The notes beneath the pieces are model-generated. The model made no database searches and had not been told where the DNA came from. It saw only the letters and a list, made by a program, of their open reading frames with translations. This document shows positions 7,172-23,577 of a stretch of 25,150 nucleotides of DNA, piece by piece. Numbering within the stretch: position 1 is the stretch's first letter; every line of letters starts with the position of its first letter. Both the position numbers and the translations under genes were made by a program. The DNA is from a virus, in the IMG/VR virus record IMGVR_UViG_3300006735_000227, positions 1 through 25,150 of that record; one strand, 5' to 3'.

Positions 7172-10003
7172 TTACTTGGATTTCTGTTGAAGTAGGCGGT
7201 ATAATGTGGCGGGTAAATCAATGTCAAATTTTTCATAGTAATTAACTTCCTTTTCATATTTTGCTGGAAAATTTTGTTGGAGGGTAGATACTATTTTAAA
7301 AATCTCTTTATAATTTGTTTCTAAATTTCTCAATATTTTATTTCTCATTTTTGCAAAATGTTGCTTGGTCATAAAACCTGACAATTTCCTACCTTTTTTA
7401 TTAGAATAGCTTTGTACTTCCTGTCCGGGTTTTACAAACGGAGTAAATGTTTCACCTGTTAAAAGATTTCTTACCGACACAAGTTTTTCACCATTAAGGT
7501 CAACTATGGGTTTTCCATAAGATAGTGATGTTAAAACAGAACCTAAAGTTCGAGCACCCATTTTTCTCATTAACTTATCGTAGCTCCCTTTAGTAATAGT
7601 CTTACTCCACGTCTTGGGTAAGGGAATATGGAAGGTTCTTTTTATATCACCAAAGGTTACGTTTCTTTGACCGATAGGAGTTCCCCCTCCTCGGCTAGTT
7701 TCACCTACTTTATTATCAGTTATAATACCTTCTTCATTTAATTTTTTTATAAATGTAAAGAAATCTTTTTCTAAATATTCAAGAACGTCGTCTGAGTTAA
7801 ATACTTCTTTACCATCCTTTAATATTCTATAAACTGCTAATTGTACTAAACCATGTGCCCTAAGAGCCTTTTTTCTAATATCCATATCATCAGCATATTT
7901 TTTAATATCCGTATCATCAGCAAACTTGTCCTCGTAAATATTTACCAAGCCCTCATCTGAATCTTCAGGTGCGGGTTCTTGCTTATAGCCTGTAAAGGCA
8001 ATCCACATTTTTTGGTCATCAAACGCCTCAACATAGCGGAAGTGTATCTTACTTTTTACCTCTTCCCCGCTTAGAATATACTCATGATATCCATGACGTT
8101 GTGCGCCGATAATTAATTGTCCCTTATCAAATAACTTATCCTTACTTGCACTATCAATAATACTACATGGGTATTTACCAGACTCACCTAAGAAGTCGTA
8201 AATTTCTTCCTCATCACCGACTTCTATTTCCCATACGTATTCCTTCCCCTGATATTCAACTATGAAGTGTAGGAAACCTTCATCGGTTAACCACATTGTA
8301 AACATACCTCTACGAGCCTTAGACTTTGCTAATGTATCGTCATCGTAGGAAAACTTACCATTATTATATTCAATACCATAAGCCTCCCCACCCTTCATTA
8401 AACGCTGCTTCATCTGTTTCACCGAGTTCTTACCGGAGAATAGTCGCGCTATAATATCCGGGTCTTGTTCCATGCAAATTTTATGTAACCGTTCAATAGT
8501 CATAGGGGCATGACCGTCCATAATTTGTTGACACATAACAAAAAACTTACCGTTATCCTTATTGTAGGCCAAGCGAATTTGTTTCATCCACATATCCTTA
8601 TCTGCCCAAGCATTCTTACCCATGAGATTACTACCCTTAAATCCGTGTAGCAATAATCCTTCGGTATCTAACTCAAGGTCCATCTTTACAATACCATGAA
8701 CATTGTCTGTAAGATAGTATGATTTCTTTAACGCTTCTACTTGATAATCTCCAAGTGATTTGCGTCCACCTTCTGTTAGTAACTCTAATGTAATTACCTT
8801 ATCAGGATATTCTACCTCGGGTATTTCATGAACCATAGCACCATTTAGGGTAAAACCCTTTTCCTTAGTGCCTACAATATCGTCTACCTTTACACGAATA
8901 ATAGAACCCACTTCTAACTTTTCTGAATAATTACCGGCACGACCTACGTTCATGTAAGTCTCACCATTCATTTCTTTAGATTTAGGACCACCTTCGACGG
9001 GTCCAATTCCCATAAGATATGAATATGTTTTGTTTTTATTTTCTCTAGCTTCGAGAATAATTACATCTAGGTCAACAAATTTTTTCCACTTAACCCACTT
9101 TGGATTTTTCTTTTTACCAACAACGTAGGAAGACTTGGCGTCCTTAATAACAACACCTTCGGATGCGGGGTTGTCCATAATTTCCTTCGCGTATTCTTCC
9201 AACTCTTCTAATGAATCTGCTTCGCGTGTATTTTTCTTATTGGGAAACTCTACCTTTTCATTAGCCTTGGCCGAAAAATTATTCATAAGTACGACCATTC
9301 TATCTTCTAGTTTTTCTTTATACACTTCTTCTCCATCATAATGCATAATGTCAAAAATGTGTAGGCGAATATCTCCCTCACTACCGACCTTTTTATTTAA
9401 GAAACCTATTGTATCAGACCTAACCAATGGGTCATCATCCTGATATAGAACCGCCTCACCGTCAAGAATTAAATCTTTCAAGTCTTTATCTTCAAAAAAC
9501 TTTACACAGTCTCCCATCTTATCCGTAATATCTCTACCACGATTAGTATAAATAGAAACCTTGTCGTTAAACTTATGAACCTGAATGCGAACACCGTCGT
9601 ACTTTTCTTGAATTATAAAATACCCCGTAAACCCATTAATTTCTTCTAAGTCATTAATTTCGAAAATACGATACATTGGTTTATTAGGTAAAATAAACTT
9701 TTCCGGTTTATCTTGCTTAGTCATTATCATAGGTATTGCTGCGCGAGATTGGTCGTAAATTGCAACCGCCTCTTGGCTTCTAACATCTAAGGATAAATCA
9801 GAAAATAAAACGCTATGTTCAATGTTGGGTATAGCATCCTTAATAGCCGGGTCGCGCACGGCGCGGCGAAGTTCGATAACTAATTTTTCCCAATCCTTAC
9901 CATAAGCCTTTGGGTTTTCTTTACCCGACAAAAACTTAGCGGCAATAATATTTTTGTATGAAACTTGATTTTTAACCAAGTCTTCGCCGGGGATAGTAAA
10001 CAT
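7172..10003 (-). CDS. ATP-dependent DNA ligase with a large C-terminal extension
   Basis: Seals nicks using ATP. All nucleotidyltransferase motifs are visible: I EKYDG with Lys134, Ia TNRGRDIT (153-160), III LDGEAVL (180-186), IIIa FDIMHYDG (217-224), IV SEGVVIKD (281-288) and V PKWVKWKK (301-308). An OB-fold follows to about 400. The N-terminal part is too short for a full ligase I DNA-binding domain. The remaining 540 or so residues are not a known ligase part. Residues about 566-676 faintly recall the LigD 3'-phosphoesterase barrel (LHFIVEYQGKEYVWEI), but its catalytic histidines are not evident. At 943 aa it is far longer than usual archaeal ligases of about 560-600 aa. I choose the ATG at 10001-10003, five bases after the upstream stop and preceded by GAGATGAT; an in-frame TTG/ATG pair about 14 codons upstream lacks such a site. 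It lies between portal and protease genes. Confidence 0.85.
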   Translation of the reverse strand: MFTIPGEDLVKNQVSYKNIIAAKFLSGKENPKAYGKDWEKLVIELRRAVRDPAIKDAIPNIEHSVLFSDLSLDVRSQEAVAIYDQSRAAIPMIMTKQDKPEKFILPNKPMYRIFEINDLEEINGFTGYFIIQEKYDGVRIQVHKFNDKVSIYTNRGRDITDKMGDCVKFFEDKDLKDLILDGEAVLYQDDDPLVRSDTIGFLNKKVGSEGDIRLHIFDIMHYDGEEVYKEKLEDRMVVLMNNFSAKANEKVEFPNKKNTREADSLEELEEYAKEIMDNPASEGVVIKDAKSSYVVGKKKNPKWVKWKKFVDLDVIILEARENKNKTYSYLMGIGPVEGGPKSKEMNGETYMNVGRAGNYSEKLEVGSIIRVKVDDIVGTKEKGFTLNGAMVHEIPEVEYPDKVITLELLTEGGRKSLGDYQVEALKKSYYLTDNVHGIVKMDLELDTEGLLLHGFKGSNLMGKNAWADKDMWMKQIRLAYNKDNGKFFVMCQQIMDGHAPMTIERLHKICMEQDPDIIARLFSGKNSVKQMKQRLMKGGEAYGIEYNNGKFSYDDDTLAKSKARRGMFTMWLTDEGFLHFIVEYQGKEYVWEIEVGDEEEIYDFLGESGKYPCSIIDSASKDKLFDKGQLIIGAQRHGYHEYILSGEEVKSKIHFRYVEAFDDQKMWIAFTGYKQEPAPEDSDEGLVNIYEDKFADDTDIKKYADDMDIRKKALRAHGLVQLAVYRILKDGKEVFNSDDVLEYLEKDFFTFIKKLNEEGIITDNKVGETSRGGGTPIGQRNVTFGDIKRTFHIPLPKTWSKTITKGSYDKLMRKMGARTLGSVLTSLSYGKPIVDLNGEKLVSVRNLLTGETFTPFVKPGQEVQSYSNKKGRKLSGFMTKQHFAKMRNKILRNLETNYKEIFKIVSTLQQNFPAKYEKEVNYYEKFDIDLPATLYRLLQQKSK

Positions 10004-10007
10004 ACTA

Positions 10008-10430
10008 TCATCTCTGGGTTGGTTGCATAGCATCTGCTGCATCAATAGAGTGAGTATACTTTAATTTTTCTAACTGTCTTAATGCATCTTCAAGAGCAGA
10101 AGCTACTTCTTTTTCCTGTCCGTCCTGTGGTTCTTCGACCGGCTCAACAGGTGGGTCTTCTCCCTCATCTAATGCGGGTGCTTTGTATAACATATTATTA
10201 GGCATCAATTTACCTTTCTTTACAGCGGTAAATTTTTCGGGCATACCCGTTGTATAAGGCTTTGCAGCCAATCGCTCGACATCAACTTTCTGTGGCTTGG
10301 GTATTTTGTTATCCCTAATTTCCACACTTTCGGTAAGTGCGCCGAGTGCATTTGTAATAATAGTTTCTAATTCATTGAGTTGAGTTAGAAGTGTTTGTCT
10401 CCTCTCGCTCATATCTGTTCCTTCGGTCAT
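10008..10430 (-). CDS. Hypothetical protein with coiled coil and acidic Pro-rich region (140 aa)
   Basis: Not recognised. A short N-terminal helix (RRQTLLTQLNELETIITNAL) precedes a basic middle part, then an acidic proline-rich linker (EGEDPPVEPVEEPQDGQEKE) and a final helix. Nothing indicates an enzyme or a membrane protein. The start overlaps the stop of the 76-aa gene by ATGA and has GGAGG seven bases upstream, so both initiation and coupling are well supported. It ends just before the ligase start. The disordered-linker architecture fits a small virion or assembly accessory protein, which is inference. Confidence 0.75.
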   Translation of the reverse strand: MTEGTDMSERRQTLLTQLNELETIITNALGALTESVEIRDNKIPKPQKVDVERLAAKPYTTGMPEKFTAVKKGKLMPNNMLYKAPALDEGEDPPVEPVEEPQDGQEKEVASALEDALRQLEKLKYTHSIDAADAMQPTQR

Positions 10431-12162: not shown

Positions 12163-14209
12163 TCGTATCTCTCCTAATATTAAGGGCAACCGCCTCATCA
12201 TCATTAAATAGCATTTTATCCATATCTTCTAAGGGTATTTTTAAAATCGCCTCTGTAATTTGTTCTTTTAATTTTTGTGAAGGCGTGCCGGGATATAAAG
12301 TCGAAGCCGAAACATTTGCTAGACCACTTAATAAGTAATTTTGGGGGTCTTCTGATAAGGAATCAAGAATAACCCCAACAACGGTGCCGACACTATCACC
12401 TGTAGATAAATCAGTAGTAAGATAAATACAATTACTACCTGCTCTCGCAAGCTTTAATTCATCAATTAATTCACCGTTTCGTCCGATACCTGAAACATAA
12501 AGTTTAATCATACAAATATTTTTTGTATTATTATTTTGTTTTTTTGTTCTAATACTATCAAAACTAAGATAAGTTAAGGAATTGAGAATAGTACCTTCAC
12601 TATTAAAAACACCTAATAGCATTCCCCCGGTTATTGTTCCCAAAAGAGAATTATATTCAGGGCCTTCTATTTTAACAATATTTTTCTTAGGTATTCTAGA
12701 AACTAGTGCTCTTAGCAAATCTATTGACTTACGTTCTGGTATCTTTTTCTTACCACCAAAGGCTCTACTACTAACCTTATCTGGCCGAGTCATTTGACCT
12801 AATAGAGTAATTAAATCTCTAAGAGGGTCCTCTACGTCCAAACTAATGCTGCTAGCTATTTGTTTGAATTCAGAAGTATCTAATTCACGAGAAACATAAT
12901 TATTAGTACTATAATAAATTCTTTCTTTTACGAAATCTAAAATAAATTTAGTATACGACCGAGTTGAATCACCTTCAGCATAGGCTCTAAAACGAGCGGT
13001 AATTACTACATTTTTAAACTCCATTCTTGATTGAACCCTTACATCTGATGCAGGAATTTGTTTGCTTAAAAATAAATTTAGTTGTATTAGACTGTCGCCA
13101 TCAAGCGCCTTATAAAATGATGTCTGGGGGTCAGAATCATCATATTCCATCTGCATGTCCCTAAACAAATTTTTTGTAACGTTGGATTTAGCTACTAAGG
13201 AAGAGTCGCCCCTAAATCTATTTGCCTTAACATCGTAATGACCGATTTTATTTAAATTTTCCTTAATAGCTACATTAACAAATTGTGTAAAGATAGTTGT
13301 TAAGGACCTGTTGTATTGTTTATTGCTCATAAACTCACCAAATTCTTTCTTATCTAAAGAAGCGATTTGTCTGACAATATCTTCCCCACCCTCATTATAT
13401 AACAAATCATCTAATACTGCATGTAAGAAATCTAACTGCACCTTAGCCGTAATCGGTTGTCCACCTTTAGTCCTTCGAATAACTTTACCACCTCTAAGTA
13501 GAGGCATAATATCATCTTCAAGACTTGTCTTCATAGCATCTATTTCACCGCGCTTAGCCATTCGTCTAATTTGTTTTGAAATAACTTGTACTATATATTT
13601 AGTAAAATGTGGGGGCAAATCCCTGTATTGGTATAAAGGATTCTTAGAAGTATTAAATAATGAAAGCAGACCTTCACTGCTAGATTCTTCTTCCTTAAAT
13701 TCTTCATCAATATCTATAACCTTTCCCTTAACAGTAATTACGGGTAAGGCGTAGTCAGAACTGAGGCTTGCCCACTCTTTAACATATTTCAAGATGAGCG
13801 TCATAAGTCTGATAAACTCGGATGTATCAAATTTTCCTCTACCCATATCCCTTTCGTGTCTAACAGTCATTATAAAAGAAAGTAAATAGCTTAGCCCCAT
13901 AGGTTTGAAGGTAAAATAAGGGTCATAATAAATTCCGGTAGAAGAATCGAACCTTAGTTGAATTGATTCAAAAACCTTATTCAAATCAAATTCGTCCACA
14001 GGCTTTCCGTATTTAAATTTAGTAGTTTTAGATAATTTATAAATTTGTTCTATTAAATCTAAACATTCGACAAATATGTTAGCAACATCCGTGTCTAATT
14101 GTTTACCACTAATGGTTTTCATATCTTCATACATATCTTCACTAGCTAGCGTAAACTTAAAATTTTTAATTAACTTTAATTGACTCGTAGTGGGAACTGC
14201 TTTCTTCAT
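12155..14209 (-). CDS. Large hypothetical protein (684 aa)
   Basis: Not recognised. It is a soluble-looking, mostly helical protein (for example VANIFVECLDLIEQIYKLSK near 42-61) with a mixed alpha/beta C-terminal part (IKLYVSGIGRNGELIDELKL). A basic patch occurs near 465-485 (RAFGGKKKIPERKSIDLLRA). No transmembrane helix, signal peptide or nucleotide-binding loop is evident. The ATG has GGAGG eight bases upstream and overlaps the stop of the 31-codon gene by ATGA. It directly follows the portal region and precedes several small genes. Its size and placement would fit an ejected or internal virion protein, but this is inference from position. Confidence 0.75.
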   Translation of the reverse strand: MKKAVPTTSQLKLIKNFKFTLASEDMYEDMKTISGKQLDTDVANIFVECLDLIEQIYKLSKTTKFKYGKPVDEFDLNKVFESIQLRFDSSTGIYYDPYFTFKPMGLSYLLSFIMTVRHERDMGRGKFDTSEFIRLMTLILKYVKEWASLSSDYALPVITVKGKVIDIDEEFKEEESSSEGLLSLFNTSKNPLYQYRDLPPHFTKYIVQVISKQIRRMAKRGEIDAMKTSLEDDIMPLLRGGKVIRRTKGGQPITAKVQLDFLHAVLDDLLYNEGGEDIVRQIASLDKKEFGEFMSNKQYNRSLTTIFTQFVNVAIKENLNKIGHYDVKANRFRGDSSLVAKSNVTKNLFRDMQMEYDDSDPQTSFYKALDGDSLIQLNLFLSKQIPASDVRVQSRMEFKNVVITARFRAYAEGDSTRSYTKFILDFVKERIYYSTNNYVSRELDTSEFKQIASSISLDVEDPLRDLITLLGQMTRPDKVSSRAFGGKKKIPERKSIDLLRALVSRIPKKNIVKIEGPEYNSLLGTITGGMLLGVFNSEGTILNSLTYLSFDSIRTKKQNNNTKNICMIKLYVSGIGRNGELIDELKLARAGSNCIYLTTDLSTGDSVGTVVGVILDSLSEDPQNYLLSGLANVSASTLYPGTPSQKLKEQITEAILKIPLEDMDKMLFNDDEAVALNIRRDTNE

Positions 14210-14301
14210 CTATTAACCCTCCTTTCACTTCTTCGGTCTACGTTATTATTTCCGGCTTCTTCTGGTAAGCCACTAAATCTTTTTGGCGGCCCCACGCTCA
14301 T
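14206..14301 (-). CDS. 31-aa microprotein between portal and the 684-aa gene
   Basis: A 31-codon frame (MSVGPPKRFSGLPEEAGNNN, then a basic end rich in R) occupies the whole gap between portal and the next gene. Its ATG overlaps the portal stop as ATGA, and its TGA stop overlaps the ATG of the 684-aa gene as ATGA. These are the same coupling junctions as other gene pairs in this window. The Shine-Dalgarno site for the 684-aa gene (GGAGG) falls inside its last codons. It has no strong site of its own, so it would depend on coupling from portal. It may be a real peptide or a translated spacer that delivers ribosomes to the next gene. Confidence 0.55.
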   Translation of the reverse strand: MSVGPPKRFSGLPEEAGNNNVDRRSERRVNR

Positions 14302-15866
14302 GCGGGGCTTGTTTCTTTTCCCGGCATCTCCCCCGCAACTTGACCCTTAGTTTGTCCGGTCATTAGAGCCTGTTCCTGTAACTGTCCTAACTGTGATGCA
14401 TCAATATTTGTACCGGCATAGGGGTCAGTTTCTAATTTTTCATCTCCCTGTTTTTCATCAACATTAACATCAATCAAGTCCTTTGGTGGGAACTTCTTAA
14501 ACACAAAGTCACCCTCTTCGTTCATATCAACCTCAAAGCCCAAGTTCTTCATTTGAACTGCTAAGTTAATTTCAATCTCACGTCGTCGTAAGTGAGAGGT
14601 TTGGTCTTCTTCTTCAGAACGAAGAAGCATAATTTTCCAATCGGTAATGCCAAATTGCTTCATAAGGTATGGGAAGAGATATTTATTATAAACCGCTTGA
14701 GCCATTTCAACCGCGCGATTAGTAACTAGAATCTGCATACCCTCATTGTTCATTCCACCGGAGGTAGTCGTATCGCCCATAAATACGTCGCTTACGCCAT
14801 AGAAACCACCAATGCGCTTTCTTAGGTCATCCTTTACGGCAATATAGTCCATCTCCTTTAGGGTGTTCATGAAAGGAACCCATTGAACGTTACCGCCTGA
14901 ACCACCATCTGATTCAATACCCATAATAGGAACATAGTGAGGGTCTCGTTCAAGTTTCTCCTTTACACCTTTCCAATACTTAACTAACGATTCCATGTTG
15001 TTAGTCTGAACGGCAAGAATACCTCGTGGAGTTCTAGCCTTTGTATATGATGTGCTAATGTATTGCTCCATAGCAGATAGAGTAAAAATGTGATTAAATA
15101 GAGTCAAAACTGGTGGGTGTCCATACAGTCTAGATGGGGAATATTTACTAATGTGAATAACCTCCCCGGTGATAAAATGCTGCTCATCTCCCTGCAACGT
15201 TTTGTTTACAAACTCTACGGGATAGAGACAGGAATTACAAACTCCACACTTATCGTATTTATCCTCAGAAATAAAATCTCTATGTGTTGGACAGATATAA
15301 CGACTGTGACCTCTATCTCCATCCTCGTCGGTTTCAATATACATGGTCGTTGGGTCGGCTCGATAAACCTCGTTAATCTTTGAAAGTACAATCTTTCCCC
15401 TTTTATCTAAGTAGTAGTCTTTTACTAAAACTAGGAAAGCATCATCAATAACATTCAGGTCGGTTTCCATTTCACGAAGAATATCAGTAAAAAGCTGATT
15501 AGCATCGTTTACATATCCCTTAAAAAATTCTTCGGCATATATTTTTTGATTAAAGTCTGGGCGACGTAGATTAGTAGAGCCGCACGCACTACATTGGTCA
15601 ACCTCACGTTGGTATTCATAGCCACAATCCTCACACTTGTATTCGAATTCTTTCTTCCATTCATACCCTCGGCGGAATACTTCGGTCTTAAGTTGGATAA
15701 GACAAGTGCGAACAATGGTAGAATTTTGTGCTGTTTCGTAGAGATACTTACCCGCATAGTGATGAGGTAATTTCTTCTCCTGAATACCCATGTTATAAAT
15801 TTCTGGCTCGCGGGGAACCGGAGTTCTTCTTCTAATCAATGACCTAATATTGTCTCTCAAACCCAT
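14298..15866 (-). CDS. Portal protein with two zinc-ribbon-like insertions
   Basis: Portal rings form the DNA entry channel and bind terminase. Family features include the N-terminal YNMGIQEKKL region, the central EVIHISKYSPSRLYGHPP segment typical of phage portals, and a long clip/stem helical part (DDLRKRIGGFYGVSDVF). A Q/G-rich tail follows. Unusually, residues 78-95 hold CxxC-x10-CxxC (Cys78, 81, 92, 95). A second cluster at 192-213 has Cys192, His195, Cys207, Cys210 and Cys213. Both look like zinc ribbons or rubredoxin-like knuckles. I choose the second ATG (15864-15866), because GGAGG lies seven bases upstream; the ATG two codons earlier is one base from that site. Position after the terminase supports the call. 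Confidence 0.85.
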   Translation of the reverse strand: MGLRDNIRSLIRRRTPVPREPEIYNMGIQEKKLPHHYAGKYLYETAQNSTIVRTCLIQLKTEVFRRGYEWKKEFEYKCEDCGYEYQREVDQCSACGSTNLRRPDFNQKIYAEEFFKGYVNDANQLFTDILREMETDLNVIDDAFLVLVKDYYLDKRGKIVLSKINEVYRADPTTMYIETDEDGDRGHSRYICPTHRDFISEDKYDKCGVCNSCLYPVEFVNKTLQGDEQHFITGEVIHISKYSPSRLYGHPPVLTLFNHIFTLSAMEQYISTSYTKARTPRGILAVQTNNMESLVKYWKGVKEKLERDPHYVPIMGIESDGGSGGNVQWVPFMNTLKEMDYIAVKDDLRKRIGGFYGVSDVFMGDTTTSGGMNNEGMQILVTNRAVEMAQAVYNKYLFPYLMKQFGITDWKIMLLRSEEEDQTSHLRRREIEINLAVQMKNLGFEVDMNEEGDFVFKKFPPKDLIDVNVDEKQGDEKLETDPYAGTNIDASQLGQLQEQALMTGQTKGQVAGEMPGKETSPA

Positions 15867-15868
15867 TT

Positions 15869-17239
15869 TCATTCCTCCTTAACGATACTGTCTAACTCAT
15901 CCATGAGTTCCCACTTAGACTCCTGTTTGTATTTAGCAATATCTTCCTCAAGGATATTATACTTTTCGAATTCTGTCTTGTTACGGGCATCCTTCCAATT
16001 CTCCCACTTCATTAGTTTGAAAATTTGTCCCATACGTTCCTTAGCCCACGGCTGCTTTTTATATCTTTTCTTAATACGAATGGCCTCTTGGAGCAACCTA
16101 CCCTGTGTTTGCTTCATTCGCAAATGGGGTAGGCACTTATCCAATAGCTTAGTAATATCATCTTGTGAATAAAAATTTAAACGATGTTGGCTGCGGGAAT
16201 TTTCCCCAACCTTTTGGTCTAAGTGTAGGCGACCAATATTCAACTCTTTCTCCAATTCTGTAAAGAATGCACGGCCACGATTGCCCGTCGCAATCATGCC
16301 GACACGGGGAGAAAAGGATGGGTCCATAGTAATATATCCATCCGAATCAATGAAGCCAGCAATGTAAGAAAAGAGGTCTTTCTTAATCTCATTGCTAATA
16401 AGATAATATTCCCCTTCAACATTGGTAACGTCCAGGCGCTTTAGCATCTTAGCAATTGTCTGAGGTGAGGTTGAACGCTTGTATGAATTTGGTAGAATAG
16501 CGTGAAGGTGATTGCTCGTAATGCCGGGATTGGAACATACGGCCTTGACCAACATATCGTCGAGCTTTTTCTTACGATTAGGTCTAATAGATTGGTGATG
16601 GATATTCTTTAAAATTTTATTGATAGATGTTTTAGATGCCTTAAAGTCCTTGACTAAACTAGTATAATCTGTCCCGTAGTCTACTTCACCCTTTTTCATA
16701 TTACATTCCCACATCTTAATAAGATGCTCAATAATTTCTTGCCTTGTTTCCCCATCCTTGATGTGATTTAGTTTACTAATTTTTTCAGGGCTAGGCGTAA
16801 TTAATTTAACCGCTGACTTATATGGTGCTAGCCAATAAATGTTACTAATACAAGAGTCAAGGTGACTAGCATAAGCCTTGATAAGATGGTCAATGGAATT
16901 ACTCATTTTAATTTTCGCACTACCCTTTAGGCTCCTTCTAATTTGTCTAAGTTCCTTCACAATTTCGGGGATAGGCTTGCCATCAATTAAGGGTTCATTA
17001 GGCATTTTTGAAACTCGCTCTTGCGCTTCAGAAAGATTAATAGAATAGTAAGAAGAGATTTCTTTTAACACCTCTATTTCATCAAAGGGGCGATAATTAT
17101 ACCAATCTTCTGAGAGGTTTAAGGTGCCGCGTAATTCTTCCTTAGCAGCAGCCGCTTCTTCTTCTTCCCGCTTGGCTTCTTCTAATAGGCGCTGCGCCAT
17201 TTCATAATCAATTTCTTCTTCCTTATAGATTAATTCCAT
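15869..17239 (-). CDS. Free-standing LAGLIDADG homing endonuclease-like protein
   Basis: The C-terminal half carries a LAGLIDADG motif, YIAGFIDSDGYIT at about 292-304. The later LLDKCLPHLRMKQTQGRLL segment is typical of the family, whose enzymes cut long DNA sites and spread their own genes. Only one motif is visible, so the enzyme would act as a dimer. A winged-helix-like segment (SPQTIAKMLKRLDVTNVEGE) precedes it. The N-terminal 230 residues are unassigned and start with an acidic coiled coil. The ATG at 17237-17239 has GGAGG eight bases upstream; an in-frame GTG three codons earlier lies within that site. The gene overlaps the end of the terminase gene by 17 bases and abuts portal, a common place for endonuclease genes. 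No intein ends or intron were seen. Confidence 0.75.
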   Translation of the reverse strand: MELIYKEEEIDYEMAQRLLEEAKREEEEAAAAKEELRGTLNLSEDWYNYRPFDEIEVLKEISSYYSINLSEAQERVSKMPNEPLIDGKPIPEIVKELRQIRRSLKGSAKIKMSNSIDHLIKAYASHLDSCISNIYWLAPYKSAVKLITPSPEKISKLNHIKDGETRQEIIEHLIKMWECNMKKGEVDYGTDYTSLVKDFKASKTSINKILKNIHHQSIRPNRKKKLDDMLVKAVCSNPGITSNHLHAILPNSYKRSTSPQTIAKMLKRLDVTNVEGEYYLISNEIKKDLFSYIAGFIDSDGYITMDPSFSPRVGMIATGNRGRAFFTELEKELNIGRLHLDQKVGENSRSQHRLNFYSQDDITKLLDKCLPHLRMKQTQGRLLQEAIRIKKRYKKQPWAKERMGQIFKLMKWENWKDARNKTEFEKYNILEEDIAKYKQESKWELMDELDSIVKEE

Positions 17240-18662
17240 AAATTCCACCTCCGAAATTTTGTTGTCCGATTAACGATTGCATCGGATTGATAACGTTACC
17301 AAACATGCCTTCACTATCAATGTCAACGAAGGCATCATTAAAAGACTTTGTGGCGTAGTTTGCCAACGCTAATGCAATAACGGAATCATCGTGTGCCCCT
17401 AAACCTTCAATCTTACCGGTTGATGAGATGCCGAAGGCTTCTAATTCCTGAATGATAGCATTACTCATGATGCGTGAATTATCATCTGCATAGGGAAAGT
17501 GAATTTTGTGATTCTCTAAATTCATCTGAAGATTGAGAATAATTTCTTCTTTCTTACGGCGAGACATGGTGAACTCACGGACGGGGAAATCAGAAATGTC
17601 GCGCAGTTCCATAGCGAAAGATTTGGCGAATGTGTTGGTTTCAATCATAACCGCTTCGGGTTTAAACCGGTGACATAAATCTGTAATGCGAGTAATGTGT
17701 CCACGGAAGTCTAGATTCTTCTCCCGAACCATAGCCACGACAGTTTTATTCATATCTTCATCAACCTCTAATACGGTCATAACTGTGTAGTCCCCATCTT
17801 GACTTAATGATGGGTCATAGCCAATGAAGTATTTGTATGCCTCGGTATTACCTGTATATTTACCAGTAATTGTTCTGTCCTTAGCCTTTTCGATAAACTC
17901 CTTTTGGAACAACATAGTGTTGGATGAAATGGGAATGCAAAGATATTCGCGTGTAAATTTAGATGAGCCGATTTCACGCTTTCGGCGTTCTAGAGAATCA
18001 ATGTCCCAACGTGAGGACCATAGGGCTTCACCTGCTTGGTTGATAGCAGGGTAGCGTTTTACATCATATTCTGTATTCTCCTCAAGTTCGGCAAAAATAT
18101 CCGTGTATGTGAAGGGTGTACCAATCATGCGAAGTGATGACGTGTGGTGAAGTGTGGGAACCATGTCGCCCCAAAACCAATCTGATACACGTTGAATGGC
18201 GGCAACTGAGAATTCCTTCATAGGGTCGTCCACGATAATTTCATCAGGGTGAAGACCGCGAATCTGTGAACCTACGGAGCGTTCAATAATTGTGTTTCCA
18301 TTTGTTAGAGTCATGTAACCTACTGCCCAACCGGACTTGGGTTTATACTTTCTCAATGCTGGAATATTGGTAAACATACGGTCAATGTCTTTCATGTGAA
18401 CCATTGTCTGTTTTTGGTTAGAAGAGATGTAAAGCATCTGATAGGGTGGCTCTTGGAATATGAGTTGATGAACACACCAAGCGTGAAAGAATACGGACTT
18501 ACCGTGGTCACGGGAACAGATTGTAACCGTGCGCTTTGTGGTATTTACACGGTCTAACCATTCGCGGTGGAATGGGGCCATCTCGTAGCCGAGAACTTTG
18601 GTGAAGAAATATTCGAAGTTGCCCTTTGAGGCAGCCATGTCCATTTCGGTTAATAAATCCAT
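17223..18662 (-). CDS. terL: Terminase large subunit (TerL)
   Basis: The DNA-packaging motor: an N-terminal ATPase pumps DNA through the portal and a C-terminal RNase H-fold nuclease cuts the concatemer. ATPase motifs are the Walker A-like CSRDHGKS (49-56), Walker B IIVDDP (142-147) and the coupling motif MIGTPF (179-184). Nuclease acidic residues are Asp283 in FIGYDPSLSQDGDYTV, Glu341 in AVMIETNTF, and Asp425/426 in GAHDDSVIALALA. At 479 aa it is of normal length and looks complete. The start is set by GGTGAT, which includes the TGA stop of the GNAT-like gene. The last 17 bases overlap the endonuclease-like gene. Confidence 0.92.
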   Translation of the reverse strand: MDLLTEMDMAASKGNFEYFFTKVLGYEMAPFHREWLDRVNTTKRTVTICSRDHGKSVFFHAWCVHQLIFQEPPYQMLYISSNQKQTMVHMKDIDRMFTNIPALRKYKPKSGWAVGYMTLTNGNTIIERSVGSQIRGLHPDEIIVDDPMKEFSVAAIQRVSDWFWGDMVPTLHHTSSLRMIGTPFTYTDIFAELEENTEYDVKRYPAINQAGEALWSSRWDIDSLERRKREIGSSKFTREYLCIPISSNTMLFQKEFIEKAKDRTITGKYTGNTEAYKYFIGYDPSLSQDGDYTVMTVLEVDEDMNKTVVAMVREKNLDFRGHITRITDLCHRFKPEAVMIETNTFAKSFAMELRDISDFPVREFTMSRRKKEEIILNLQMNLENHKIHFPYADDNSRIMSNAIIQELEAFGISSTGKIEGLGAHDDSVIALALANYATKSFNDAFVDIDSEGMFGNVINPMQSLIGQQNFGGGIYGINL

Positions 18663-18666
18663 TTAA

Positions 18667-19491
18667 TCACCGAACCTTCGGCTGTATATTTCTCTCACGG
18701 ATAACATTTCTCAAAGCAATGCGCTGTTTCTGCTTGGGGTCACTACCCATAGTTTGTTGAAAAATCTGTTTATACCTTTCTACATCATCGGGACTAAAGT
18801 GATACTTCTTCCCGTCAATTACGACAACAGTTCCGATAACTCCCATTTTTAGAATATCCCAAGCCTTCGCCATCGCGTCATCTTCGTAAATCTCACCGGG
18901 CATATTATACGTAATCATCTTCCTCGGCTTACCCCTTTCTGTAATGGTCTTCTCAGCATCCATTACCAAAGATTCTGGCAACGTGGAAACCGGTGGCTCA
19001 ATGTTCCAATTCTGACTCTTAACGTAGTTAATCCACCCTTCCTTAAAATTACTCAAAAAGCCAACCGCAGGTCTATTGCGAAAAATAACTCTATCGCGCA
19101 TTTCCCATAGTTTCTTAGCAATACTCAATCCTCTATACATGGGAATAACCTTCACACCAACGGTTAGAAAAACTCCGTGTTGGCGTAGATATTTCCATCC
19201 CACGCGACCAACGGGTAATGGTTCGCCACCCAATGTATTATTGTGGTCAAAGGCAATAAAATACCCATCAGCATTTACCCGCGTTAAATCGGGAAAGAAC
19301 TCCATGTCCTCACGCTGCTTACGTTGTGGATTTACAACCTTGAATACCTTAAGCATCTCTTCCTCCTTGTAAACCTTATTGGTAATACGAATGTCTGGGG
19401 TATTTGCAGGCTTACCTTCATCATCTGTAGGAATTGGTAGGAATCTACTAGCCCCCTTACCACCTGCGTCAGCGCCTAATTCCTTCTTCAT
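18667..19491 (-). CDS. GNAT-fold acyltransferase-like protein
   Basis: Residues about 46-165 show a GNAT pattern: strands at DGYFIAFD and RVGWKYL, then motif A VKVIPMYRGLSIAKKLW (113-129) and a final FKEGWINYVKSQNW. In active enzymes motif A binds acetyl-CoA through R/QxxGxG/A. Here it reads RGLSIA, with serine at a normally glycine position, so catalysis is uncertain. Residues 200-274 form an extra C-terminal domain rich in charged helices. The start overlaps the upstream stop by ATGA but has a weak ribosome-binding site. An internal ATG at codon 46 follows AAGGAGG at five bases and could give a shorter product. It sits directly upstream of TerL. A packaging or virion-modification role is inference. 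Confidence 0.6.
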   Translation of the reverse strand: MKKELGADAGGKGASRFLPIPTDDEGKPANTPDIRITNKVYKEEEMLKVFKVVNPQRKQREDMEFFPDLTRVNADGYFIAFDHNNTLGGEPLPVGRVGWKYLRQHGVFLTVGVKVIPMYRGLSIAKKLWEMRDRVIFRNRPAVGFLSNFKEGWINYVKSQNWNIEPPVSTLPESLVMDAEKTITERGKPRKMITYNMPGEIYEDDAMAKAWDILKMGVIGTVVVIDGKKYHFSPDDVERYKQIFQQTMGSDPKQKQRIALRNVIRERNIQPKVR

Positions 19492-21848
19492 CGGAATAGC
19501 CCCTTAATTTTATACACTACTAGTGTATCAATACCGTGTGATTTTGCAATCGTGTTAAATGAGTCACCACTTTGAATAATTTTTTCAATATCAGTCATAT
19601 ACATGTCAATGCCGTCTTCATTTTTAATAATAGAAATTACTTCATCAACATCTTCAATATCGTCGGTATATAAGTGTGCTCTATAAACTGGTAAATTACG
19701 AGACTTTCTTAATGTGTCTAAGGCATCAAGGTAGGCATTTGTAAGACCACTCTTAATTAAACCATCTCTATAATACCGTGAACGTTTAATTGCATTTGTT
19801 AACTTACCAATGTCCTTCATATTATTTTGTCTGGCATAGGCGGCAAAGTCTCTATCTTTGGTAAGTAATACGATATCGTCAAGAAGTTCTTTAATCAACC
19901 CATCGCTAGGTATATCTTTATATTGAGACAATTTTTTACCCTCGAACGTTAATTCACCCTGCTCGGGCATTTCTGTAAATAGAACTGCACCCAAGAAATT
20001 TTTCAAGGACGTGTTCATTTTTCTAGTTTCCGAAATTGGTTCGTCTGCTAGAGCAACAATTTGTACTAGAGAAAGATAAAGTTTAGACGTATCATTAACA
20101 ATTTGAATAGGAGAGCGAGTTGTTCCTCGCTGGGCACCCTTAAAGAATCTAGTCAGATTTTTAATATCATCATTTTCTAAAAGGCCGGGAGCAACGGTAA
20201 GTCTTCTAAGCATACCCTCATAAAATCTACCAGATATAGATGATAGAGATTGTTGAAGGGTAGTATATTCCTCGGAATCTGTAAATTGAGGGGTATCTTT
20301 ACCATAAAAATATCGGAAATTCATAAAGTCAAAGTAAAATACTTTGATAAAATCAGCTAAATGAGATTCAGCAAAACTTCGCTTAATACTTGGCTCAATA
20401 CCCTTAGAAGGTAATGTGGCGGTTCCACCCTTATCTTGCCCTGAAGCAAAGGGCTTAAATTTACTATCGGGTAAAATTTGTGCTAGTAGTTTAAAGGCAT
20501 TAGTAGCCTTTTGATTTACCTTATCCACAAAGTCATTATAACTAGAAACTTGTATATCTCTATATTTTGGAATAAGTCTTAGGTCTCCATTTTCTACCGA
20601 AGTTTCAAAGGTTAAAACCTCTAGGCTTAAATTTTCGGTAATACTTCTTTGAAAAATACCGCGATGAACGTTATCATCCATAATGGGTAGATTGAAAACC
20701 TTACGATTAATAATGTCTGTTTTCATCGCTTGGATAATTTCTTTTACCTTATCAATAGCAATGTTTAGAATATTTGCTAGGTAAGGAGCAGACTCTACAT
20801 TGTATAACTCACTTAGTTGTTTAATGATTTTTTCTTCCATCGGTGTATCAATGAAAAAATTATTGTCTGTAGTTTGGCTTTCAATAGCTAATAGTGGGTC
20901 AACAAACTTAATTTGTTTTGTTCTCTTAAAATATTCTTCAATGTCAGAATACGGGGTAGTAAACTCTTCTACACCCATTTCACCTTGAGGATTAAAATCT
21001 GCTCGTCCGCGTGATTCAACAATACTCATGCGTGCGCCGTAGTCGGCCTTACCACCAGAAAGAATGTATCTATAATTACTATACTTATCTCGGGGGAAAA
21101 CATTGTTTAAAATTGCTTCTGAAATTACTTCGTCCTTATATTGTTTAATATCAATACTAGTAAGATTCATAACATAGTTAGGTAGTTCAATTCTCCTAAA
21201 TAACCTAGCCACATTTTCTACCTCATCTCCCACACCTTCAATTATATAATCAGTTCCTTCAAGATTAATATCTAAATCTTTCGGGGGGTCTTGGAAAAAA
21301 TCATTTGCCTCAGTCCAAAAATCATAAATTCTCTCTCTATCAACTGTAGATGAAGAGCTAAAATATTGAAAGTGTTGGTTGATATCTGAAATGCTAACCG
21401 GCTCAGACTCCACAAGTTCGGGAGTAACCTCTAATGAACCCTTTAATTTTTGAATTAATTTTTCCATCTTACTTTGATATTCGGGGTTAATGAATTCCTT
21501 TACCTTCTCATATCTTTCAGAAACTTTATCAATAAACTGTTCTGTCGTACCGCCGCCCGTTTTTGCAGTAAGAGGAATATTACCTTCGGGAAGATTGTCT
21601 AATAAGTCTCTAACCCTAACTACGCGAGAGCGAACAGAATCAACATCTCGTGGTGGTGTTGATGGGAAAGTAAATTTTTCAAATTTTGGTATTACACCAG
21701 CAATGTAGTGAAGAGCAGCGGCATCATCATAAATAGGTTGACTTTCATCCTCTCCTAAATCTTCGGGTCTATCAATATCTCCATATGTTGCTAAGTCTAA
21801 ATAAGCATCTATAGCGCCATCATCTTCGATTTTAACATAATCTTCCAA
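19488..21848 (-). CDS. Large hypothetical protein with TTG start (786 aa)
   Basis: Not recognised. It begins with an acidic segment (MEDYVKIEDDGAIDAYLDLA), continues as a long mostly helical soluble protein, and ends in SGDSFNTIAKSHGIDTLVVY, which resembles a LysM repeat or a helix-turn-helix. The start codon is TTG (21846-21848), supported by TGAGGTGATTATTTG, in which GAGGTGAT begins inside the stop of the preceding gene. No ATG is found close by. TTG may lower its expression relative to neighbours. No membrane segments or catalytic motifs are seen. Together with the 510-aa gene it fills 4 kb before the terminase. A virion role is possible from position only. Confidence 0.75.
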   Translation of the reverse strand: MEDYVKIEDDGAIDAYLDLATYGDIDRPEDLGEDESQPIYDDAAALHYIAGVIPKFEKFTFPSTPPRDVDSVRSRVVRVRDLLDNLPEGNIPLTAKTGGGTTEQFIDKVSERYEKVKEFINPEYQSKMEKLIQKLKGSLEVTPELVESEPVSISDINQHFQYFSSSSTVDRERIYDFWTEANDFFQDPPKDLDINLEGTDYIIEGVGDEVENVARLFRRIELPNYVMNLTSIDIKQYKDEVISEAILNNVFPRDKYSNYRYILSGGKADYGARMSIVESRGRADFNPQGEMGVEEFTTPYSDIEEYFKRTKQIKFVDPLLAIESQTTDNNFFIDTPMEEKIIKQLSELYNVESAPYLANILNIAIDKVKEIIQAMKTDIINRKVFNLPIMDDNVHRGIFQRSITENLSLEVLTFETSVENGDLRLIPKYRDIQVSSYNDFVDKVNQKATNAFKLLAQILPDSKFKPFASGQDKGGTATLPSKGIEPSIKRSFAESHLADFIKVFYFDFMNFRYFYGKDTPQFTDSEEYTTLQQSLSSISGRFYEGMLRRLTVAPGLLENDDIKNLTRFFKGAQRGTTRSPIQIVNDTSKLYLSLVQIVALADEPISETRKMNTSLKNFLGAVLFTEMPEQGELTFEGKKLSQYKDIPSDGLIKELLDDIVLLTKDRDFAAYARQNNMKDIGKLTNAIKRSRYYRDGLIKSGLTNAYLDALDTLRKSRNLPVYRAHLYTDDIEDVDEVISIIKNEDGIDMYMTDIEKIIQSGDSFNTIAKSHGIDTLVVYKIKGLFR

Positions 21849-21852
21849 ATAA

Positions 21853-23385
21853 TCACCTCACCAAATCATACTCTCTAAGAACGTCAATGACCTTCTTATT
21901 GTTAATTTCTTTGTATTGGGGGTTATTCAAGTCAACACTATTAAACATTTCTAAAATTTGAGAAATAACATTCCTTCTAAGGGGCCGAAGCGTGGACTGA
22001 ATTGCTGCTTCTAGGTCCGAACTAAATGATTGATTGCGTCGTGCTAATCTACGTACAATTCTTTGGATACTAGGCTTTGGTCTTTTGGCCTCGGTATTAA
22101 TTACCTTTTCACTAGCCTCGTCTTCTAATGTTTCTGTGATAAGTAGTTCAATTGGCTTCGTATCTACATCAAATGACTTTAGTAAACTAACCATGTTAAA
22201 GAAAGCAGCACCCAATGATAGTGTTTCATCTGCATCATATTCACCGTCAAAGTTTAGTTTGAAATCAGTTAACTTCGGTGCGCGACTTAACCCTTCTCCG
22301 ATAACCTCAATGTAAGGATTTTCCTCCATTTCAGTTTCGACCTCCGTTGATTTAACATAGTCATTAAATACTTTCGTAATGACTTGATTTTTACTACCTC
22401 TCAAGTCGGCAGTAATTTTTTCAATAAATTCATTTCGAGATAAGTCGGTATATTCTTCACCCAATGCATTATATTCTTGCATACTATCTCTATTATTCCA
22501 AAAATAATTTGCAAACTCCGCATTGATAGCACTATAGTCAGCACCTCTACCGAGTTCCTTTACATCTTCACCACTTTTATATCTTCTAGGTGAAACAAAA
22601 GAAATATATTTTGAAAAAATATTTGGTTCATTATTTAAAATAGATGAAAATAATTCTTGCTTATTTACAATACCCTTTGAGGTATTACCAAAAAATTGGC
22701 TGATAGAATTATCCAAATTTTCTTTCTTTACAATTTCTACAACAACATCTATAAATCTATTAAATTCCACTTCTGATAATCCCGAAATAATTCTCGGACT
22801 AAAGTTCTGCACTTTATAGGTGGCGAGTTTTCCAATACCAGCGTGGTTTCTTTTCCACCAATTTTTTACAGCATTGCTTACTTCAGTTGGTAGTGCCTTG
22901 TTAACACCTTCCGTTTTTAACTCGTCTGATACAGAATTTAAAGTAACAACAATGCGATTATTAATAAAATAACCCAGAACATTGATGAAAGCATCACCGC
23001 CCTCTAACCAATTTTTATAAAGTTTTTCTGCATTTGTATCGAACCAACCCTTAGCATCCTTCTCTAGTGGAAAGGATTCTCCAATGGTTGTCTCGGCAAA
23101 TTTTAACTCATTAATATTATCTACAAAGGGTAGAGAACCAAAATTAGTTTTTAAATAATCTGAAAATTCCTTAACGGCATTTTCTCTACCACCCGCTCTA
23201 AATATAACCTTTTCATATAACTCTTCATCAAATTCAGAACTATCTGTATCTAATTTCTTACCGTATACAAATAACGATGTTTTTTCTTTTAAAGTCCAAC
23301 CGCCCTCGGGAGTTTGAAATTTAGAAGCATCAAAACCACCGCGTCTAGTTAAAACTTCCCTAAATAACGAACGGAAGTTTAAAAT
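21853..23385 (-). CDS. Large hypothetical protein with an apparent AUU start (510 aa)
   Basis: An ATG/GTG/TTG-based search finds only a 319-aa frame from GTG at 22810-22812. The same frame stays open for 191 more codons upstream, to a TAA at 23386-23388, with a normal-looking protein sequence (LTRRGGFDASKFQTPEGG; VSNAVKNWWKRNHAGIGK). No ATG, GTG or TTG occurs in those codons. The first sense codon is ATT, placed seven bases after GAGG in TGAGGCATTTAAATT. Other junctions read TGAGGTGATTAAATG, so ATT sits exactly where ATG should be. Either AUU is used or the ATG was lost by mutation or sequence error. The protein is soluble-looking and helical, with a basic stretch near 435-455 (KRPKPSIQRIVRRLARRNQS). 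Function unknown. Confidence 0.65.
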   Translation of the reverse strand: MLNFRSLFREVLTRRGGFDASKFQTPEGGWTLKEKTSLFVYGKKLDTDSSEFDEELYEKVIFRAGGRENAVKEFSDYLKTNFGSLPFVDNINELKFAETTIGESFPLEKDAKGWFDTNAEKLYKNWLEGGDAFINVLGYFINNRIVVTLNSVSDELKTEGVNKALPTEVSNAVKNWWKRNHAGIGKLATYKVQNFSPRIISGLSEVEFNRFIDVVVEIVKKENLDNSISQFFGNTSKGIVNKQELFSSILNNEPNIFSKYISFVSPRRYKSGEDVKELGRGADYSAINAEFANYFWNNRDSMQEYNALGEEYTDLSRNEFIEKITADLRGSKNQVITKVFNDYVKSTEVETEMEENPYIEVIGEGLSRAPKLTDFKLNFDGEYDADETLSLGAAFFNMVSLLKSFDVDTKPIELLITETLEDEASEKVINTEAKRPKPSIQRIVRRLARRNQSFSSDLEAAIQSTLRPLRRNVISQILEMFNSVDLNNPQYKEINNKKVIDVLREYDLVR

Positions 23386-23392
23386 TTAAATG

Positions 23393-23396
23393 CCTC
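23393..23396 (-). promoter_or_regulatory. Shine-Dalgarno site that decides the AUU start
   Basis: GAGG on the minus strand overlaps the TGA stop of the 60-aa gene and lies seven bases before the ATT at 23383-23385. The same offset separates GAGG from ATG at 3469 and 4745. This spacing is the main evidence for the start of the 510-aa gene. Confidence 0.5.
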
Positions 23397-23577
23397 AGAC
23401 TAATATTGCACCGCTCAAAAAGCCACCTACAAGACCTAGGACAAGGGGAAGAGACTTTTGAATCATGGCCGTATATTTGGCCTCTTGCTCTTCTGTGATT
23501 AGTCCTACATCTTCTAGAATGTCTACTACGTCTTCTGCTACATCTGCTACTTTTTCTACCGTTTCTTCTTTACTCAT
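23395..23577 (-). CDS. Small tail-anchored membrane protein (60 aa)
   Basis: The first 40 residues form an acidic amphipathic helix region (EKVADVAEDVVDILEDVGL). Residues 42-60, SLPLVLGLVGGFLSGAILV, are one hydrophobic transmembrane segment that ends the protein and contains GG and small residues that favour helix packing. Orientation and function are unknown. A holin-like, membrane-remodelling or tail-tape accessory role could be imagined, but nothing in the sequence decides. It overlaps the 78-aa gene by ATGA, with GTGAT as ribosome-binding site. Its TGA stop forms part of the site for the AUU-started gene. Confidence 0.75.
   Translation of the reverse strand: MSKEETVEKVADVAEDVVDILEDVGLITEEQEAKYTAMIQKSLPLVLGLVGGFLSGAILV

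Follow-up and report, generated by a model that had tools for sequence, protein, structure and literature searches.

The window, by which we mean the whole stretch of DNA analysed here (a 25,150-base virus record, itself a fragment), carries on its minus strand three neighbouring genes for products of 60, 510 and 786 aa, followed by the gene for the terminase large subunit, TerL (Table 1). The middle gene lacks a usual start codon. As the original prediction had it, translation from 23385 to 21853 gives a stop-free frame of 510 codons and 510 residues in which the first ATG, GTG or TTG is the GTG at 22812, with none of the three among the 191 codons upstream of it. The frame opens with an ATT that is directly preceded by an in-frame TAA, and a GAGG stands 7 nt before the ATT, also as claimed. 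To a start-codon-based gene caller 582 nt (22813-23394) would appear empty; the gap that had been described is present, but is slightly larger than the 570 bases given for it. No ATG, GTG or TTG occurs in any frame within the first ~45 nt of the gene and none in frame upstream of 22812, which leaves no other start to account for the conserved N-terminus.

Table 1. Features at the locus of the 510-codon gene, in positions of the window.
Feature	Position	Strand	Evidence
60-aa gene with hydrophobic C-terminal stretch, conserved immediate upstream partner	23395..23577	-	Junctions of relatives
GAGG, weak Shine-Dalgarno match, overlapping the TGA stop of the upstream gene	23393..23396	-	Sequence and pairing energy
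ATT at the conserved start-codon position	23383..23385	-	9 nt from the upstream TGA, as for the L055 ATG
191-codon N-terminal part missed by start-codon-based calling	22813..23385	-	L055 match and coding potential
510-codon CDS, conserved and syntenic, between the 60-aa and 786-aa genes upstream of TerL	21853..23385	-	L055 homologue and ~30 syntenic genes
786-aa gene, directly downstream, synteny anchor	19488..21848	-	53 matches
TerL, anchor for fetching relatives	17223..18662	-	80 related loci gathered with it

Using codon statistics derived from the other genes of the window, the 191 upstream codons scored +0.37 bits per codon in frame; the two offset frames gave -0.76 and -1.41, and the rest of the gene scored +0.28 bits per codon. 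A terminase-anchored search gathered 80 related loci, and these contained one clear homologue of the 510-codon gene, a gene for 531 aa with an ATG start at the same position in a related contig (L055:2748-4343). The 191 residues align with this homologue with 44% identity over residues 2-182 (E=1e-43), whereas the remaining 319 residues show 19% identity over the aligned part (E=7e-5), so that the part lost to annotation is the better-conserved part. Alignment with homologues had been proposed as the check on the upstream residues, and it finds them conserved; the L055 gene and the syntenic genes of other relatives are full-length and do not begin at the GTG. The 191 residues that start-codon-based calling was said to drop are real and coding in frame, the gene call should reach 23385, and the extension to 510 codons is solid. 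The absence of start codons over so long a stretch is unusual without being exceptional, and it was not taken as evidence that AUU has long been in use: such runs turn up in about 1% of frames (4 of 419 coding-strand frames of at least 200 codons contain at least 190 consecutive codons free of start codons), and the finding had been selected for it.

The start position of the gene is conserved. The junction with the 60-aa gene reads TGA-GGCGGTTGA-ATG in L055 and TGA-GGCATTTAA-ATT in the window, and both ATG and ATT lie 9 nt past the TGA; the ATT stands exactly in the place of the L055 ATG. In the protein alignment the L055 methionine is opposite residue 2 of the window protein, with one extra window codon right after the start. 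About 30 other relatives carry a gene for 500-780 aa in this place, starting with ATG, GTG or TTG; the interval holds just one such gene wherever the 786-aa gene and the neighbour upstream of it are complete. The start was found -4 to +10 nt from the partner stop in all 17 measured relative junctions, the partner stop being TGA in every one, and the 9-nt gap is common to the window, L055, L029, L060, L065 and L067. Between the window protein and the products of the distant syntenic genes identity is 14-18%, and kinship outside L055 therefore rests on position and length, plus a weak sequence match for the L029 gene (E=4e-4). No relative shares the AUU: wherever a relative includes the start of the gene, the codon is ATG, GTG or TTG. 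The product of the 60-aa gene is acidic in its N-terminal half and hydrophobic at its C-terminus, and the gene stands beside the presumably coupled gene in ~20 relatives.

Similarity between the window and L055 is uneven. TerL is 92% identical in protein, with DNA identity of 78% over 4.5 kb (14197-18671), whereas the 786-aa and 510-aa genes (19488-23385), just upstream of TerL, are only 29-35% identical, which suggests that these two genes have undergone mosaic exchange or evolve very fast.

The window encodes TerL, portal, prohead protease, major capsid protein and an ATP-dependent DNA ligase. The major capsid protein matched archaeal viruses only (25-27% identity over 87%), the closest being the haloarchaeal tailed viruses HVTV-1 and HCTV, and TerL had no close match among phage records. 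A family-B DNA polymerase, which in a genome of 90-110 kb is a mark of magroviruses, is present in 9 of 9 related records of 87-96 kb; the window, a 25-kb fragment, is without one. Magroviruses (Magrovirales) are tailed dsDNA viruses of Poseidoniales archaea (PMC10160649, PMC12999244), and the portal, TerL, prohead protease and ATP-dependent DNA ligase described for them are also found in the window, a likeness drawn from these published descriptions. By these features, this marine virus looks like a magrovirus-like archaeal tailed virus of Poseidoniales, and the 510-codon gene belongs to its virion module.

The 510-codon protein belongs to no Pfam family and its matches to PHROGs were at chance level only. 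Its AlphaFold model is mostly helical and of low confidence (pLDDT 66, pTM 0.39), and gave no viral fold match below E=0.5. Elsewhere on the minus strand, a gene inside the virion-structure module (7172-10045) encodes a 957-aa protein in which residues 138-321 form an ATP-dependent DNA ligase domain and several hundred others have no assigned function. A 459-aa gene between TerL and portal (15869-17248) has a LAGLIDADG-like motif (YIAGFIDSDGYI) and looks like a putative homing endonuclease gene, with no Pfam match above the cut-off; in L034, a fragment of a similar protein is found behind an in-frame stop.

The Shine-Dalgarno sequence at the ATT junction consists of GAGG only and pairs with AUCACCUCCU at -5.6 kcal/mol, 16th of the 20 window genes scored. 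The likeness to neighbouring ATG junctions that the original prediction drew holds for the position and the GAGG, but the Shine-Dalgarno match is weaker than was implied, the GAGGTGATTA leaders of the compared neighbouring junctions reaching about -12 kcal/mol. E. coli infC is a bacterial gene that starts with AUU, and archaea use aIF1 where bacteria use IF3. In infC and pcnB of E. coli and cvfC1 of S. aureus, as in the window gene, the AUU occupies the start position 3' of a Shine-Dalgarno sequence; the hosts of these three genes are bacteria, whereas that of the window virus is apparently an archaeon. In S. aureus, regulatory AUU and AUA starts come with extended Shine-Dalgarno sequences and are conserved (PMC13009471). 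This is true of cvfC1, whose AUU is conserved among staphylococci (PMC13009471), whereas the AUU of the window is private to one contig and its Shine-Dalgarno match is 4 nt long. A role for the AUU in dosage control, raised in the original prediction, is thus unsupported, since the relatives with the start present use canonical codons, and comparison of their sequences gives no support for a conserved control of this kind. In S. aureus reporters the yield from a non-canonical AUU start was about 10% of that from AUG (PMC13009471), and in Sulfolobus aIF1 favours discrimination against non-canonical starts (PMC6237735). No archaeal gene started by AUU was found in the literature searched.

The claim for an AUU start, unlike the gene extension, rests on one base in one contig. 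Searches of IMG/VR with the exact DNA pattern (leaving the start codon free), the protein, a protein alignment, the 60-aa gene and the 786-aa gene found no second contig over the ATT site, and a protein-alignment search of the genome collection found no second copy. A survey for lost starts in 885 kb of related sequence (82 loci, 655 closed frames, filtered for extensions with homologues) yielded no second convincing gene of this kind on the coding strand. Of the other coding-strand hits, the one in L034 is a piece of the homing-endonuclease-like gene that follows a stop, the one in L049/L054 is apparently the tail of a longer frame, and the one in L017 is weak and short; the remaining hits are on the strand opposite TerL. 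In cellular genomes switches from AUG to AUU are very rare, at one in 61,358 reconstructed AUG starts (PMC5622118), a figure that may be too low, since AUU starts are under-annotated.

Two readings that dispense with an AUU start altogether were rejected by comparison with relatives. If the true gene were the 319-aa ORF from the GTG at 22812 it would have a canonical start codon, but the untranslated stretch upstream would then hold the best-conserved codons, the syntenic genes are full-length and no Shine-Dalgarno sequence precedes the GTG; we regard this as having a negligible chance of being right. Fusion of the 60-aa gene and the 510-codon frame by stop-codon readthrough is hardly more credible. 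The 9-nt gap does keep the two genes in register in both the window and L055, but two stops would have to be read (TGA, then TAA or TGA), the gap length is not divisible by three in L025, L023, L011 and others, and many relatives have a 4-nt overlap.

A consensus or assembly error in the third base of the start codon, with the virus having ATG and an ordinary gene, is a serious possibility that falls somewhat short of probable. A single base separates the window ATT from the L055 ATG, the ATT is unique among all relatives, the evidence is a single metagenome contig and the finding was selected for its oddness. Against an error, the genes are intact, all 340 TerL and portal columns that are invariant in relatives are kept in the window, and the contig matches L002 gap-free over 3,664 nt in one place and 746 nt in another; these observations bound the error only loosely, at roughly <4 errors per 1000 bases, and one wrong base is compatible with a clean-looking contig because this bound is far too loose. 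Alternatively, the ATT could be a real but damaging mutation, such that the sequenced genome or subpopulation makes little or no protein. Its restriction to this contig and the weak Shine-Dalgarno match would fit, but the 510-codon frame shows no decay and an assembled consensus should represent the majority allele, and we consider this unlikely. Overall, the odds appear roughly even between an AUU that is real but weak and is aided by termination-reinitiation, and a T that has replaced a G through a consensus error or a private mutation.

The reading we prefer, with a confidence that comes close to even without reaching it, is that the full-length gene starts at its conserved position with a real AUU and that full-length protein is made through termination-reinitiation. 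Ribosomes would finish the 60-aa gene, probably the source of terminating ribosomes for the 510-codon gene, at its UGA; the overlapping GAGG would hold them there, and they would reinitiate with Met-tRNAi on the AUU 9 nt downstream, giving full-length protein in lower amount. A low yield is expected from the weak Shine-Dalgarno match (-5.6 kcal/mol). The AUU would then be a private, probably recent variant and no conserved regulatory device. In Haloferax, termination-reinitiation was reduced by 60% at 13 nt and abolished at 22 nt for one gene pair, and coupling in general was substantially reduced at 13-14 nt and gone near 22 nt (PMC10666635), which places the 9-nt gap within reinitiation range and is compatible with the -4 to +10 nt of the relatives. 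Short stop-start distances go with translational coupling in Haloferax (PMC6728339, PMC10666635) and with the predicted coupling in the virus, at 9 nt in the window and -4 to +10 nt in 17 relatives. Coupling to an AUU start was not found described in the archaeal termination-reinitiation literature searched. We propose tentatively that an archaeal virus here uses AUU as a natural and functional start codon, and that this is tolerated because termination-reinitiation from the tightly coupled 60-aa gene brings the ribosome to it.

Because of a single base, automatic annotation here drops more than a third of a real 510-codon gene. A real AUU would make the junction a natural test of how strict archaeal ribosomes are about the start codon, and of whether they become less strict when the gene is coupled to one upstream.
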